A stretch of 23,034 nt of DNA from a virus. Positions 6,565-18,536 of the stretch are shown in pieces. The notes under the pieces are model-generated. The model was given only the letters and a program-made list of their open reading frames with translations. It searched no databases and was not told where the DNA came from. The stretch is taken from IMG/VR virus record IMGVR_UViG_3300017745_000064, positions 1 through 23,034 of that record; one strand, written 5' to 3'. Each line of letters starts with the position of its first letter. The stretch's first letter is position 1. A program made the translations under genes and the position numbers.

Positions 6565-7878
6565 CTAACTAAAAATGTTATCGATAACTGTATTTATAAG
6601 GTAATCATCGTATTTTGCGTCATACATGTCTTTATCTGCTGCGATAGAAGAAGCTTGCATAGCTGCGTTATGCGCTCTATCCTTTGAGTTTTCAGATGCT
6701 TTCATATTCCAAGAAGCTTGATCACGATACGCTTGCCATATGTTGTTCATGGCATTTTGATTAATACCTAAAAGGTTTAGTACGTTCTGTCTGTTTGTTT
6801 CGTTCGTAGCGGCGTTGTTAGCAGTGTTGACTGTCCTACGCCAGTTTGCATTGCTTTGATCAATTTGAAGCTGCATGTTTGCATTAAACTGATCACGGGT
6901 AGTTTGCATCTGGGCATTAAATTGATCCACAGCTACTTTTTGACTAACATTAAATTGTTCTAACCCTGCCTTACGATTTAACGAAGTTGTTTGAATTGTA
7001 GCCCCTAGCTCCGCAAAGAACATATCTACTTCGTTTTCGGATTTAGCATTGAATTGTTTTGCTGCGTTGTCTGCAGCAGCATCTGCTAATAACCCTGCTA
7101 CTTGACTTTGATAAGTAACAGTATTGGATTGTTGTTCATTAGTTAAGTTTGCCATGTCCATAGACAAAAACGCTTTAGAGTTTTGAACTGCTGCTTGTTG
7201 CCTGTTGTTTAAGTTCGCCATATCCATCGCGGCGGTGGTGGCAGCATTTTGTAAAGCAGCTTGTTGTTCGTTACTCAGATTGGCAAGTTGAATAGTGGCG
7301 TACTTACCCGCATCTTCTGATGCAATTTGTATTCCTGATTCAGTTACGGCTTGAACCATCGCTGCTGCAGCCATTGAACTTGCACCAAGTCCACGCTGTT
7401 GCATAATAGCTGTTACTTTACGAACTTGAGGTGCGGCCCATGCAGGAAGGGGTTGACCTGCCTGTATAGAACTCATCAACTGTCCCATTTGAAACTGGGT
7501 AGTTGCTCTAGGGTCAAGATTTGCTGTAGCGGCTGTGGCTAAACTTGCAGGAGAAACAGTACCCTGCGCTGCTTGCATTACGGCAGCATTTGAAACAGTA
7601 CCCTGTGCAGCAGTAGCAGCCCCCATACCGGGAGTTGCATCTGTTGATGTATAAGTTTGAGCGGTGGTAGCGGCAGGGGCTGTTTGATTATATGATGATA
7701 AATTAACTTGGGCCGGAGCCGGAGCTTGAGGAGCAGTTATTGTTTTACTTGTATCAGTCAGTAATTCATTTGTTTGTACTGTCTGGGGGGTTGTTGTAAG
7801 CTCTTGTGATGCGTCTAGTTTCTTTTGATCTGTTTGATCAAGCATCTTCTGCTTAACTTGTTTTTCTGTAACAGCCAT
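6565..7878 (-). CDS. Hendecad-repeat coiled-coil virion protein
   Basis: A 437-residue Ala/Gln/Asn-rich protein. Residues 1-150 are low-complexity Thr/Ala/Pro/Gln. From about 195 onward the sequence is a long helix with clear periodicity: ANLSNEQQ, ANLNNRQQ and ANLTNEQQ recur every 22 residues (199, 221, 243), and QFN or QSN recurs at 275, 308, 319, 330 and 341, that is at multiples of 11. An 11-residue (hendecad) period is typical of right-handed or straight coiled coils. The C-terminus (NMKASENSKDRAHNAAMQAS) remains helical. Length, composition and place between tail fibre and ejection-type genes suggest an elongated internal virion protein. No enzyme motif is seen. Confidence 0.75.
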   Translation of the reverse strand: MAVTEKQVKQKMLDQTDQKKLDASQELTTTPQTVQTNELLTDTSKTITAPQAPAPAQVNLSSYNQTAPAATTAQTYTSTDATPGMGAATAAQGTVSNAAVMQAAQGTVSPASLATAATANLDPRATTQFQMGQLMSSIQAGQPLPAWAAPQVRKVTAIMQQRGLGASSMAAAAMVQAVTESGIQIASEDAGKYATIQLANLSNEQQAALQNAATTAAMDMANLNNRQQAAVQNSKAFLSMDMANLTNEQQSNTVTYQSQVAGLLADAAADNAAKQFNAKSENEVDMFFAELGATIQTTSLNRKAGLEQFNVSQKVAVDQFNAQMQTTRDQFNANMQLQIDQSNANWRRTVNTANNAATNETNRQNVLNLLGINQNAMNNIWQAYRDQASWNMKASENSKDRAHNAAMQASSIAADKDMYDAKYDDYLINTVIDNIFS

Positions 7879-7881
7879 CTA

Positions 7882-8106
7882 CTAATCTTTCTGTAATACG
7901 CGATCTAGCTTGTCTTCTACACGATGCAACGCTTCCATAACACGACTCATATCTTCACGAACTTCACTACGGGTCACGTATTCTTCACGGGTGCGGTTAA
8001 GTAATATCTCTATGCGCTTAACTTCATTACTTAGAGTACTGGCCCAGTAACCAAACCCAAGAACAAGTATGCCAATGAGAGCATCTATAATGTGTACTAA
8101 ATCCAT
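7882..8106 (-). CDS. Small membrane-anchored coiled-coil protein
   Basis: A 74-residue protein with one N-terminal membrane segment (residues 5-24, IIDALIGILVLGFGYWAS) followed by a charged helix with heptad character to the C-terminus (EVREDMSRVMEALHRVEDKL). The topology resembles small XhlA-like or holin-accessory proteins, and similar short proteins occur near tail genes of marine phages. A role in membrane binding of the ejection apparatus is equally possible. It lies 3 bases from each neighbour, inside the tail operon and far from the lysozyme block, which argues mildly against a purely lytic role. Confidence 0.75.
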   Translation of the reverse strand: MDLVHIIDALIGILVLGFGYWASTLSNEVKRIEILLNRTREEYVTRSEVREDMSRVMEALHRVEDKLDRVLQKD

Positions 8107-8109
8107 GTA

Positions 8110-8664
8110 TTATCTCCAGCGAGGACCTTCAAACCATGAAACCAACGAGTAGCGAGTTCCTTTGGTTACAGGAGATACTCTATGTTGCAGTACGCTTGGG
8201 AAACAGAGTATTGTTCCCTTTGTCTTTAATTGATCTGGGTTGGGTGACTCAACCTCGTTGAACTGGAAGTCACCGCCCTCGTATGAACTTGGATCAGATA
8301 GCTGCAGTACGATACTTATCTTTCTGTCGTATGCAGTGTTTGCTGTCCAATCAACATCGTGGTGCCAGTGGTAGTGGGCTGCTTCAGAAGCACGGTACTC
8401 TGTAAACTGTACACTTCCAACATTCTGTACATCTAAGCCAAACGCCAATCGGTTAGCTTCTTGCACATGCCACCAGAGTATGTTTCTAATTTCTGGGTCT
8501 TCTACCCAACGAACGATACTAGAACGATGTTGGTTTTCTTGTGAGGCATCTTCTTGGTTAAAGGTTGTTGCTTGAATGGGTGGTAGTTGTTTAAGATCAT
8601 AGATCATGTTATTACATGAATTTGCAGGTATACCCCCCTGCCACATTTGCCATGCCTGTTTCAC
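8110..8664 (-). CDS. 2-oxoglutarate/Fe(II) dioxygenase, PKHD (prolyl hydroxylase-like) type
   Basis: A probable non-haem iron dioxygenase that uses O2 and 2-oxoglutarate to hydroxylate a substrate. Numbering is for a 184-residue protein starting at GTG 8664. The GTG overlaps the upstream TAG by one base (TAGTG) and has GGAG 8 bases before it; an ATG at 8682 is in frame but lacks a good site. The facial triad is HHD (H101, D103) and H161 (QHRVSP), with R171 ten residues later for 2-oxoglutarate. The flanking pattern (RKISIVLQLSD, YEGGDFQF, GTILCFPS, SLVSWFEGP) is typical of the PKHD/PiuC-like double-stranded beta-helix fold. The substrate is unknown. Its neighbours (fibre, chaperone, a second dioxygenase) suggest a virion target. 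Confidence 0.9.
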   Translation of the reverse strand: MKQAWQMWQGGIPANSCNNMIYDLKQLPPIQATTFNQEDASQENQHRSSIVRWVEDPEIRNILWWHVQEANRLAFGLDVQNVGSVQFTEYRASEAAHYHWHHDVDWTANTAYDRKISIVLQLSDPSSYEGGDFQFNEVESPNPDQLKTKGTILCFPSVLQHRVSPVTKGTRYSLVSWFEGPRWR

Positions 8665-9272
8665 TACACGTACTCCATCCATCCAGTAGCAATATACTTA
8701 TCACCAGATAGTGGTGGATTTCCTCTGTGGCAGTGGGTAAATCCTGCAGGAAAAATCAGTAGTCTACCAGCTTTGGGCTGTACTCGTTTTGACAGATACA
8801 AAAATTCAGTTTCGCCCCCTTGCTCAATATCATTTAGGTACAAGATAAAACTAATACATCTTGTTTTATTGAGAGGATTAGCATTTTCACAGTGCCATAT
8901 ATGATAACCTTCAGACGGTTTTGTTTTTTGTATTTTAAAACCTGTTGGCGATATACCCAAACTACCAGTTTCTAAGCCTGTAATAGTGTTAGTAATACCA
9001 TTTTTATACCTATCAACGTACGACATTATGTGATCGTTTGTTTGTTTTGCAACAAGAAGTACATTGTTATTTGGTACTACACTATCAACAGCATCCATAT
9101 GTATTTCAGAAAGGTTTAAAGAAGTATCTTTTGTTAAAGTTTCTTCTTCTTTATTTCTTTGATAGCTCTGTCCACATTTGTGTGCGTATTCAAAAGAGTT
9201 TATTACATCTATACATGTTTCTTCAGTTAATACGTCGTCTACAACGTGTATAAAATCATCAGTCGTTTGCAT
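8664..9272 (-). CDS. 2-oxoglutarate/Fe(II) dioxygenase, WHxE variant (prolyl 4-hydroxylase-like)
   Basis: A second non-haem iron dioxygenase of 202 residues, clearly different from its downstream neighbour. The proximal iron motif reads WHCE (H127, E129), so Glu replaces the usual Asp. The distal ligand is H180 (FPAGFTHCHRG), and K192 (GDKYIATGW) is placed to bind 2-oxoglutarate as Lys does in prolyl 4-hydroxylases. The intervening strands (RCISFILYLND, GGETEFLY, KAGRLLIFPAG) fit the jelly-roll core. The start overlaps the chaperone stop by 14 bases and the end overlaps the next dioxygenase by one base, indicating coupled translation. All ligands are present, so activity is plausible. The substrate cannot be read from sequence. 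Confidence 0.9.
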   Translation of the reverse strand: MQTTDDFIHVVDDVLTEETCIDVINSFEYAHKCGQSYQRNKEEETLTKDTSLNLSEIHMDAVDSVVPNNNVLLVAKQTNDHIMSYVDRYKNGITNTITGLETGSLGISPTGFKIQKTKPSEGYHIWHCENANPLNKTRCISFILYLNDIEQGGETEFLYLSKRVQPKAGRLLIFPAGFTHCHRGNPPLSGDKYIATGWMEYV

Positions 9273-9684
9273 ATGCTGTTATCCAATCAGGTTTAGTAGG
9301 CCACGATATGGTTTCTGGGAATCCTGATTGGGTTGGTACGTCTAGCATAGCTTGACGATAGGTTGTTAGTTCGTTCTGTTTGTCTGTGCCTAAAGCCCCC
9401 CATCTGATTGGGTTAGAAACTATGGGGTCTACATAAAGCTCTAGATCGTAACGCCTGTTGGCTCTTGCAGTACGAGCTAAATCTTCTTTGATTTCTTCTG
9501 CTGTAGGTGCTACGTATGCTTCGGTATTTGAATCTGCTGCCATTGCATCATACAAGGTAACAACATCAAATAAAGCACCGCTATCATCACGATGACAGGT
9601 AAATGGAATCCACCCATACTCCTCGTGATTTATTTCACAGGTTATTTCAGCTTCCCCCGTGAATTTTGCGTTTCTATAGTCCAT
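9259..9684 (-). CDS. Tail fibre assembly chaperone-like protein
   Basis: A 141-residue acidic protein. The C-terminal part (about residues 105-136) carries ELTTYRQAMLDVPTQSGFP and then ISWPTKPDW, a pattern (YRQALLD-P-Q-GFP-WPTKP) seen in phage tail assembly chaperones of the XkdW/DUF4376 kind encoded just after tail fibres. Residues 55-100 form a charged helix. It follows the collagen-like fibre by 25 bases with an AGGGAG ribosome-binding site, which is the expected position for a fibre chaperone. The role is assigned from the motif and gene order. Confidence 0.8.
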   Translation of the reverse strand: MDYRNAKFTGEAEITCEINHEEYGWIPFTCHRDDSGALFDVVTLYDAMAADSNTEAYVAPTAEEIKEDLARTARANRRYDLELYVDPIVSNPIRWGALGTDKQNELTTYRQAMLDVPTQSGFPETISWPTKPDWITAYAND

Positions 9685-9709
9685 TCTAAATACTCCCTTG
9701 AGTTTAAAA

Positions 9710-10975
9710 TTACGCTGTTCGTACGTACAAAGCTACACCGTAGTAGTAGTTTTCGTTATAATGTCGTGTAGCAGTATTCGCACCCATGTTTCTCCATGTA
9801 CCGCTCACAGAACTTCCACTGGATGAGTTTGACGAACTAAATGTAGTATATTGATACCCTGACTGATTTTGTTTATTATATCTAAGGCTACCACCAGATA
9901 CTGTGCTACTCACACTTACACTTCCGCTGTTTAAATACAATGCGGCGTAAGAACCAACAGCGTTAAAAGAGCTAGACGGAGTTCCGGCTGCTCCTGATGG
10001 ACCTGTCGGACCAGTTGGACCTGTCGGGCCAGTTGGACCTGTCGGACCTGCACTACCGTTGCTTCCGTTGCTTCCTGCTGGGCCTGTTGGACCTGTTGGA
10101 CCTGTTGGACCTGCTGCAATGGCGTTTGCTGTCGTTGCTTTTTTCCAAGCTGATGCAGAGGTATCATATACTGCCACTACATCATCAGTTGCTACTGAGG
10201 TTATAGTCCCAAAGCCTGTTAAAGCTGCACCTACGTTTGTACCGTCTGTTACATCAGCAGAAGCTTCTACACCGTCTAACTTAGTATGGTCAGCATCTGT
10301 GAATACATTACTGTCACTTGCACTTTCAACCAACGTTCTGATTTCAGCAGCAGTCTGGTCGGCAGTGGCTGAAGCCTCAATACCGTTTAACTTAGTATGG
10401 TCAGCATCAGTAAACACATTACTGTCTGATGCACTTTCGACCAATGCACGTATCTCTGACGCTGTTTGATCTGCAGTAGCCGAAGCCTCAATTCCGTCGA
10501 GCTTAGTACCATCTGTGGCTATATCTCGCCCATCCACTGTGCCAGTAACTACAATGTTACCGTTTGCAGTAATTGCACCTGCAGCAAAGTCACCATTTGA
10601 GTCCCGCGCCACTATGGTACTTGCAGTATTTGCATCTGTCGCGTTAGATGTTACTGTAAAGGTCGCTCCCTCTGCACCTGCAGAACCCGACAAACCGACC
10701 CCCGACACTGCACCTGCAGCGACGTAGTTGCCAGTTGTTTTTGTTCCTAGTGCAACAGAGTTGTTGGCAACAGCAGAGGCATCTACCGCTCCTGCTGCAA
10801 GACCTGTTGAGTCAATCTTCGGACCTTCGCCAGTTGTACCATCGTGGCTATGTCCTGTTGAGCCGTTAAAACCAGCTTGAATAGCATCAAACTCACCATC
10901 GAGGTCAGACGCATTGATTACGTTGCCATCTGCAATGTTGTTTGAGCTATCGTTTCTTACGTATCCTGTACCCAT
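9710..10975 (-). CDS. Collagen-like tail fibre protein
   Basis: A 421-residue receptor-binding fibre. Residues 1-50 ([20 protein letters not shown], then [11 protein letters not shown]) match the baseplate- or tail-attaching N-terminus found on many marine phage fibres. Residues 60-155 are a beta-rich shaft ([20 protein letters not shown]). Residues 158-231 are two near-identical 37-residue units, with a partial third to about 245. Residues 289-331 are collagen-like Gly-X-Y triplets, mostly Gly-Pro-Thr. Residues 335-421 form a Ser/Tyr-rich tip ending [10 protein letters not shown]...ALYVRT, typical of fibre C-termini. A GGAG site precedes the ATG. Chaperone and two hydroxylase-like genes follow directly, so the fibre is an obvious candidate substrate. 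Confidence 0.9.
9983..10111 (-). repeat. Collagen-like Gly-Pro-Thr triplet repeat in the tail fibre
   Basis: Residues 289-331 of the fibre hold about 14 uninterrupted Gly-X-Y triplets. Most are Gly-Pro-Thr, split by a short Gly-Ser-Asn and Gly-Ser-Ala stretch. Proline is in the X position and threonine in Y. Such runs form a trimeric collagen triple helix in phage fibres. At DNA level they are 9-base repeats prone to slippage, so the triplet number may vary between related phages. Confidence 0.9.
10283..10504 (-). repeat. 111-bp tandem repeat (37-residue units) in the tail fibre shaft
   Basis: Two direct copies of a 111-bp unit encode [19 protein letters not shown] and onward to [12 protein letters not shown] (residues 158-194 and 195-231). 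A partial third copy begins [13 protein letters not shown]. The protein copies differ at only a few residues, while the DNA has more silent changes, so the duplication is under protein-level constraint. Similar units recur in fibre shafts, where copy number sets fibre length. Confidence 0.88.
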
Positions 10976-17453: not shown

Positions 17454-18536
17454 CTACGCCGCTAGTTGCCACAAATTACTCGCATCTAATCCCATCCACT
17501 TGCTCCACTCTGCATAGTAGTGTCGCATACCAACTTCATCGTGAATGGTGCTGTTCTCGTGTCGTCCGTGTAAGATGTTACGGGGTTCTGTTCCCTCGCG
17601 CATTGTTGTACCTTGACCAGCTACGCCGATAAGGTCTTCGTGCAGGTTACGTCCGAATGGACCCCAAATAGAGTTGTGATGCTTGATACGAGTCGCACGT
17701 TCCTTTGGGGTATCCTTTTTAAGACCATAGCCACGAAACTCAATAAGAACCTTGTTTGGCCCAAGAGGTGTAACGCTATCGCTTCGATAAGCACTACCAC
17801 GAAGATTAAAATTAAATCCGGGGAACAGGTCAACCATGTACCATTGATTGGGTGGCAGGTTAGGGAAACTAAGCTCTCCTCTATCCTCAAACCCATCGTA
17901 CTCCTCGTAGTTAACGGTGAAGCTGCTAACATTAACATGTCCGTTATCGAATGGTATGTTTTTTCTAGCAAAGTATTCATCGTTAAAACCTGACACACGA
18001 TTAAAGTAATGCATGAAATCGTGATAGAACTCGCTGTTGGTATCGTGCCACAGCTTGTAGTTTGTATCTACTACTGCTTTGTGATAGTGGAAGACTTCCA
18101 TCTCTTCGGTGTCGATAGCATCCGTAATACAGTCAAATGCTCCTGCTGTCCACTGATCCACAGTCATGGGGTTGTTTTGATCAAGTGTAGTCCATACCAT
18201 ACCCCCGTGTTTGACTTCACACGGCAACTCTTTCCACATTCCTGAGTGATATGTTAAGGATAGATCGTTGCCAGAGGGACGTTTAACGTTGTCAGAAAGA
18301 AACGTTCTAACTTTGCCATCTTCAAACCGTATAGCTACTACATTGTGCAGTGCTATCTGTGTTGTCCTAAAATCACCTAATTTAGGTAACTCACTCGAAT
18401 GACACATAGGCACCCAAACTTTAGAAAAGATGTCTTCTATCTCTTGTGCATAAATGTCGTAGCTAGAGTAGATTAGAGAACTAATGTGTTCTACTTTAGG
18501 AGTTTTGAGCCAGTCTTTGTGATTGCGTGGTGGCAT
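17454..18536 (-). CDS. Rieske-type non-haem iron oxygenase homologue with degenerate Rieske domain
   Basis: A 360-residue homologue of ring-hydroxylating or quaternary-amine oxygenase alpha subunits. The start is ATG 18536, overlapping the upstream stop as TAATG; a GTG 12 bases earlier is less likely. Residues 28-121 follow the Rieske domain (YAQEIEDIFSKVWVPMCHSS, ELPKLGDFRT, AIRFEDGKVRTFL), but the cluster ligands fail. Where families have N-V-C-x-H-R-G it reads NVKRPSG (83-89), and where they have C-P-Y-H it reads LTYH (94-97). Only H97 remains. The catalytic domain keeps NSEFYHDFMH (E169, H172, H176) and EDLIGVAGQG (D301), possible iron ligands, though the usual H-x4-H is H-x3-H. Either the enzyme works without a Rieske cluster or it has a new function. 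Confidence 0.75.
   Translation of the reverse strand: MPPRNHKDWLKTPKVEHISSLIYSSYDIYAQEIEDIFSKVWVPMCHSSELPKLGDFRTTQIALHNVVAIRFEDGKVRTFLSDNVKRPSGNDLSLTYHSGMWKELPCEVKHGGMVWTTLDQNNPMTVDQWTAGAFDCITDAIDTEEMEVFHYHKAVVDTNYKLWHDTNSEFYHDFMHYFNRVSGFNDEYFARKNIPFDNGHVNVSSFTVNYEEYDGFEDRGELSFPNLPPNQWYMVDLFPGFNFNLRGSAYRSDSVTPLGPNKVLIEFRGYGLKKDTPKERATRIKHHNSIWGPFGRNLHEDLIGVAGQGTTMREGTEPRNILHGRHENSTIHDEVGMRHYYAEWSKWMGLDASNLWQLAA

Follow-up and report, generated by a model that had tools for sequence, protein, structure and literature searches.

What a phage could do with a Rieske oxygenase that has lost its Rieske cluster is the question raised by a reading frame in the IMG/VR virus record IMGVR_UViG_3300017745_000064, of which positions 1 to 23,034 were analysed (the window, 23,034 nucleotides). 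Pfam recognised the catalytic domain PF00848 (E=1.3e-7) in the encoded 360-aa protein and no Rieske domain. The N-terminal 80-100 residues match alpha subunits of Rieske dioxygenases (phmmer against the PDB, E-values to 5e-10), and this alignment ends about where the first ligand loop would be expected. Together with the model superposition described below, these matches bear out the preliminary description, which had called the protein a Rieske oxygenase homologue with a missing cluster; a C-x-H...C-x2-H motif is absent from all 360 residues. Judged by its sequence, the protein is best described as a Rieske oxygenase alpha subunit without a [2Fe-2S] site. The gene is the one long annotated as methanesulfonate monooxygenase MsmA in the SAR116 phage HMO-2011, whose host is the SAR116 bacterium Puniceispirillum marinum IMCC1322. 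The HMO-2011 protein gp61 is 75% identical over 98% of the length and also clusterless, and the lysozyme and neighbouring genes are common to the window and HMO-2011, and we see no essential difference between the two. Searching IMG/VR with the query peptides gave at least 599 matching stretches, every listed one of which was confirmed as a relative. PHROGs yielded no family for the clusterless protein. The features of the window are given in Table 1.

Table 1 Features of the clusterless oxygenase gene and of other reading frames in the window.
Feature	Position	Strand	Basis
Clusterless MsmA-type Rieske oxygenase alpha subunit (catalytic half), 360 aa; ATG at 18536	17457..18536	-	ORF, Pfam, HMO-2011 match, model
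Stop codon of the clusterless gene	17454-17456	-
Residues 1-104, what is left of the Rieske domain scaffold; cluster-binding tip absent	18225..18536	-	PDB matches, alignment, model
Residues 77-104, variable deletion scar; CPH-x26-CMFH in intact MsmA	18225..18308	-	alignment, conservation, omega
Residues 146-350, hyperconserved catalytic domain, omega 0.023	17487..18101	-	conservation, Nei-Gojobori
E169 codon; corresponds to the bridging Glu/Asp through which electrons pass between subunits	18030..18032	-	alignment, CntA comparison
H172 codon, predicted mononuclear iron ligand	18021..18023	-	alignment
H176 codon, predicted mononuclear iron ligand	18009..18011	-	alignment
D301 codon, predicted mononuclear iron ligand	17634..17636	-	alignment
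Two adjoining 2OG-Fe(II) oxygenases in the tail region, beside a tail assembly chaperone (PF16778)	8110-8682, 8664-9272	-	PF13640
Probable tail protein, 421 aa; contains an internal repeat and a collagen-like stretch, GPTGPTG	9710-10975	-	

The bacterial relatives at 50-60% identity to the phage protein are intact MsmA proteins (methanesulfonate monooxygenase alpha subunits) of ~415 aa with the motif CPH-x26-CMFH. In an alignment to these, both cluster-binding loops, ~45-50 residues, are excised from the phage protein. The first deletion removes the CPHRGM.IE stretch, the second begins at the second spacer, takes in CMFHAWQF and ends immediately ahead of the conserved EVKxGG strand, and a short RPSG island is left between them. 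As both ligand loops are deleted, nothing occupies the ligand positions. The preliminary description had instead read a ligand substitution, with C-x-H changed to K-x-P in NVKRPSG and C-x2-H to LTYH; the RPSG of NVKRPSG corresponds to the inter-loop RPSG of intact MsmA, and the substitution has to be given up. The same holds for H97, which had been taken as the one surviving ligand: of 110 distinct sequences, only 48 have His in this column and 54 have a gap, and in entire subclades the sequence at this place is unrelated. E169, H172, H176 and D301 are present as first described and align with intact MsmA. The H-x3-H spacing is no departure from the norm, since intact MsmA has an identical E-x2-H-x3-H. 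The phage protein resembles MsmA in identity (about 56-64%), in the E-x2-H-x3-H...D site and in its place in the trees, but lacks the CXH-X26-CXXH Rieske motif that defines MsmA (PMC4433239).

An AlphaFold2 model built with 47 homologues (pLDDT 86, pTM 0.88) is closest, according to VIA-align, to the alpha chains of alpha3-beta3 enzymes, namely those of TPADO (Z 32.0, 2.9 Å over 324 residues) and NagGH (Z 31.9, 2.7 Å over 315 residues). The superposition that had been proposed as a check therefore agrees with a Rieske oxygenase fold, and the modelled protein retains the alpha-subunit fold with the cluster-holding tip absent.

The loss is not confined to this phage. Among the matches listed, C-x-H...C-x2-H occurred in 0/200 viral homologue loci and EFYHD(F/Y)(M/L)H in 197/200, the other three being fragments, and intact relatives were found only in bacteria. 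These scans with the clusterless query comprised the best 80 loci each, which intact viral copies could escape; a better negative is the complete scan with the Rieske-half query (see below) and one pattern inside the Rieske loop (64 loci), which revealed no intact viral Rieske copy. In contrast to the scar, the catalytic part is almost frozen. E169, H172, H176 and D301 are invariant in all 110 distinct sequences, and among 82 phage orthologues mean conservation is 98% for residues 146-260 (98/115 invariant) compared to 59% for residues 81-104. Likewise, the dN/dS comparison suggested earlier returned Nei-Gojobori omega values of 0.023 for the catalytic domain, 0.12 for the N-terminal part and 0.27 for the scar, from pairs picked on catalytic-domain divergence, for which the dS values are not unbiased. 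For the same gene pairs (phage orthologues L001-L082), dS was 0.41 in the catalytic domain (146-350) and 1.1 in the N-terminal part. Recombination between the phages could explain the lower value, as could codon constraint or the choice of pairs.

The lost defining motif could be taken as the mark of a decaying or sequencing-damaged MsmA, a reading to which we give practically no credence. It is already refuted by conservation: the frames are open in hundreds of contigs, selection is strongly purifying and the loss occurred independently more than once. One-off decay is ruled out by the conservation across phage orthologues, the omega values and the invariant E/H/H/D.

The invariant residues also bear on function. 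In Rieske oxygenases, cluster and iron of one subunit are ~44 Å apart, and electrons instead cross ~12 Å to the neighbouring subunit via a bridging Asp or Glu (PMC7948474). In carnitine monooxygenase CntA, an alpha trimer with both centres in each subunit, unlike the phage protein, E205 mutants are inactive and the bridging Glu serves electron transfer to the neighbouring subunit's Rieske cluster (PMC7948474). Because electrons cross between neighbouring subunits, a clusterless subunit could be fed in trans. E169 is the equivalent of the bridging Glu and invariant although the phage protein has no cluster of its own, and therefore a Rieske-bearing neighbour makes the best sense of it. The preliminary description had offered a repurposed or partner-dependent oxygenase or a substrate-binding protein. 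Of these we favour the partner-dependent enzyme, whereas a substrate-binding protein is hard to square with an iron site and a bridging Glu that never vary. For the same reason we regard it as very unlikely that the protein is a repurposed non-redox protein, be it a virion component or a substrate binder with retained fold. The gene does lie in the late structural and lysis region, which is unusual for a metabolic gene, would suit such a role and counts against a split oxygenase; however, the closest cellular copy resides within a methanesulfonate operon.

This cellular copy is found in SAR116 bacteria, which encode the same clusterless protein with 76-80% identity to that of the phage. A few kilobases from it lies a second MsmA homologue of ~800 aa, hereafter the Rieske half. 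In 10/10 aligned copies it retains the cluster ligands C, H, C and H, and in 10/10 it has lost E/H/H/D; the copies from L311 and L091 show an intermediate decay, e.g. NFKLNHDRTIKFHQDFMK. Its C-terminal half is a putidaredoxin-reductase-type FAD protein (Pyr_redox_2 and Reductase_C). The Pfam assignments are complementary, with PF00355 but not PF00848 in the Rieske half and PF00848 but not PF00355 in the SAR116 clusterless protein. A structural model of the Rieske half reached a pTM of only 0.46.

The two halves occur together. The clusterless gene was detected in 12/136 genomes of the SAR116 order, and the same search detected the Rieske half in 11 of those 12, with an interrupted frame in one of them (G014); the twelfth (G006) contains Rieske-half fragments, one at a contig end. 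Three further genomes have both halves, and one MAG has no partner on a contig that ends 2 kb upstream. Altogether, the clusterless gene was found in 16 bacterial genomes, and the partner is present in 14 of them (one interrupted), in fragments in one and absent from one, the short-contig MAG. In two other MAGs (L097, L098), the clusterless genes are probably not bacterial, as their contigs look like phage; L097 carries ORFs resembling ribonucleotide reductase and glutaredoxin, as is usual for T4-like phages. One SAR116 MAG (G010; L312, L313) contains the split locus twice, with two of each half and uptake genes.

The locus of the pair also encodes an MsmB-like beta subunit (SnoaL_4, with Ring_hydroxyl_B below the cut-off), an MsmC-like Rieske ferredoxin, a LysR regulator and, with assignments made partly by eye, sulfonate-type ABC uptake, a TauE-like exporter and one-carbon genes. 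In L311, which probably belongs to IMCC1322, the three genes that separate the halves resemble, on inspection by eye, the sulfite dehydrogenase SoeABC. The likely host genome of HMO-2011 carries the split pair. For IMCC1322, two MsmA proteins with the Rieske motif in only one have been reported (PMC4433239), and SAR116 papers list msmA as a single gene; in the SAR116 genomes examined, the motif-bearing one has lost the iron site. In its composition the SAR116 pair fits the split Rieske type of NdmC/NdmD, with a clusterless catalytic subunit and a Rieske domain on a reductase, of which the phage encodes the catalytic half only. While msmB, msmC and a reductase accompany MsmA and are also present with the SAR116 homologue, 18 phage records, some of them fragments, contained no intact Rieske domain and no MsmB match, the latter in a weak search without a positive control. 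PF00355 matches in phage records were rejected as Rieske halves; they were the scaffold of the clusterless protein or short unrelated frames.

A division of this kind is known from the caffeine N7-demethylase NdmC/NdmD/NdmE, in which the catalytic subunit has no Rieske cluster and the Rieske domain is on the reductase (PMC4408171). The Ndm proteins belong to another subfamily with another reductase type and NdmC is not phage-borne, whereas in SAR116 the partner combines a complete alpha-type chain, its iron site dead, with a reductase. Reciprocal loss of centres has reportedly been described by Kunugi in 2013 for the two chains of the chlorophyllide a oxygenase of Micromonas. This enzyme likewise distributes one oxygenase over two polypeptides (PMC9615114), but is eukaryotic, acts on an unrelated substrate and involves no virus. 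The missing motif of HMO-2011 and marine viromes was already noted in 2015, without a split partner (PMC4433239). Thus, the missing motif in HMO-2011 and in one host protein was known, and the reciprocal SAR116 partner and the split are new here; in the literature searched, which was largely open-access, we found no report of this partner or of repeated loss in phages.

The phylogeny adds a second case. The trees, which include no outgroup of other Rieske oxygenases, place the phage protein among MsmA. A further viral clusterless group (clade 2), the contigs of which look T4-like, nests inside gammaproteobacterial intact MsmA. A single origin of the clusterless form was rejected (AU test, p=0.002), and the best tree needs three changes. 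Relatives in the bacterial order adjacent to clade 2 have one intact-length MsmA each; in this clade, phages excised the cluster without a known host split. On one clade-2 phage contig (L274), A-type Fe-S carrier-like ORFs with a GGGC-S/A-G motif (7585-7902 and 9397-9762) closely flank the clusterless gene, the downstream one matching PF01521 and the upstream one giving no Pfam match.

That clade-2 phage genes occur beside bacteria that have only intact MsmA counts against a split oxygenase and leaves room for two other explanations. The protein may be a mononuclear iron enzyme that receives electrons straight from a ferredoxin, a reductase or a small reductant without any Rieske-bearing neighbour. 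The iron site, invariant in the absence of a cluster, and the occurrence of clade-2 phages near bacteria without a split partner would agree with this, but a bridging Glu known for its contact with a neighbouring Rieske cluster is kept in 110/110 sequences, and nearby in SAR116 a Rieske protein with a dead iron site is retained as its dedicated partner, which makes direct reduction unlikely. Slightly less likely still is a dominant-negative or regulatory subunit that inserts itself into the MsmA trimers of the host and dampens or diverts host sulfonate oxidation. The same fold, with presumably the same interfaces, and the intact MsmA of the clade-2 relatives would allow for it; however, a poison subunit would need neither an invariant iron site nor such a low omega, and SAR116 bacteria retain the same protein in their own operon.

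Read from sequence, the deletion, the conserved iron site, the reciprocal host partner and the operon point to a split oxygenase. We consider it probable that the phage gene encodes the catalytic half of a methanesulfonate-monooxygenase-type Rieske oxygenase that joins a trimer of host subunits and is fed in trans. The loops deleted while E/H/H/D are kept, the strong constraint on the catalytic domain, the reciprocal SAR116 partner and the NdmC/NdmD precedent all speak for this explanation; a phage subunit beside another phage subunit, on the other hand, would lack an electron source. Within such a trimer, electrons would pass from the Rieske cluster of the neighbouring host alpha subunit to the iron of the phage subunit via E169. 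They would come from the Rieske-reductase fusion in SAR116 hosts, a partner that the phage protein may be expected to use given its identity to the host's own catalytic half, and from intact MsmA elsewhere. During infection, this would probably increase the oxidation of methanesulfonate, or of a sulfonate like it, to formaldehyde and sulfite.

As to the origin of the pair, the clusterless genes of SAR116 group together as a single clade within the phage tree (bootstrap 98), which suggests capture of the gene from phage to host. A phage clade that excludes the SAR116 copies appeared in 0/200 bootstraps, yet this arrangement was not rejected by the AU test (p=0.37). The Rieske halves are nearer to the intact SAR116 MsmA L116 than the clusterless proteins are, and a clade uniting clusterless proteins and Rieske halves was not rejected either (AU p=0.24). 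It may tentatively be speculated, as a possibility we hold with some doubt, that the SAR116 enzyme is a virus-host chimera, in which a phage lineage lost the Rieske tip of MsmA first, SAR116 captured the gene into its methanesulfonate operon and its own MsmA decayed to a Rieske-reductase subunit, while phages still plug their catalytic half into the host half.

HMO-2011-type phages are reported among the most abundant in marine viromes, and surveys have counted the phage 'msmA' as a sulfur-cycle gene able to degrade methanesulfonate. If the split reading is true, phage 'msmA' could not work alone but would be half of a two-protein enzyme in need of an electron-feeding subunit from the host. 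The methanesulfonate monooxygenase of SAR116 would then be a split enzyme whose halves have each lost the metal site that the other keeps, and phages would have removed the Fe-S cluster from the same enzyme at least two times. It would thereby become directly testable why viruses that borrow metabolic enzymes do away with their Fe-S clusters.
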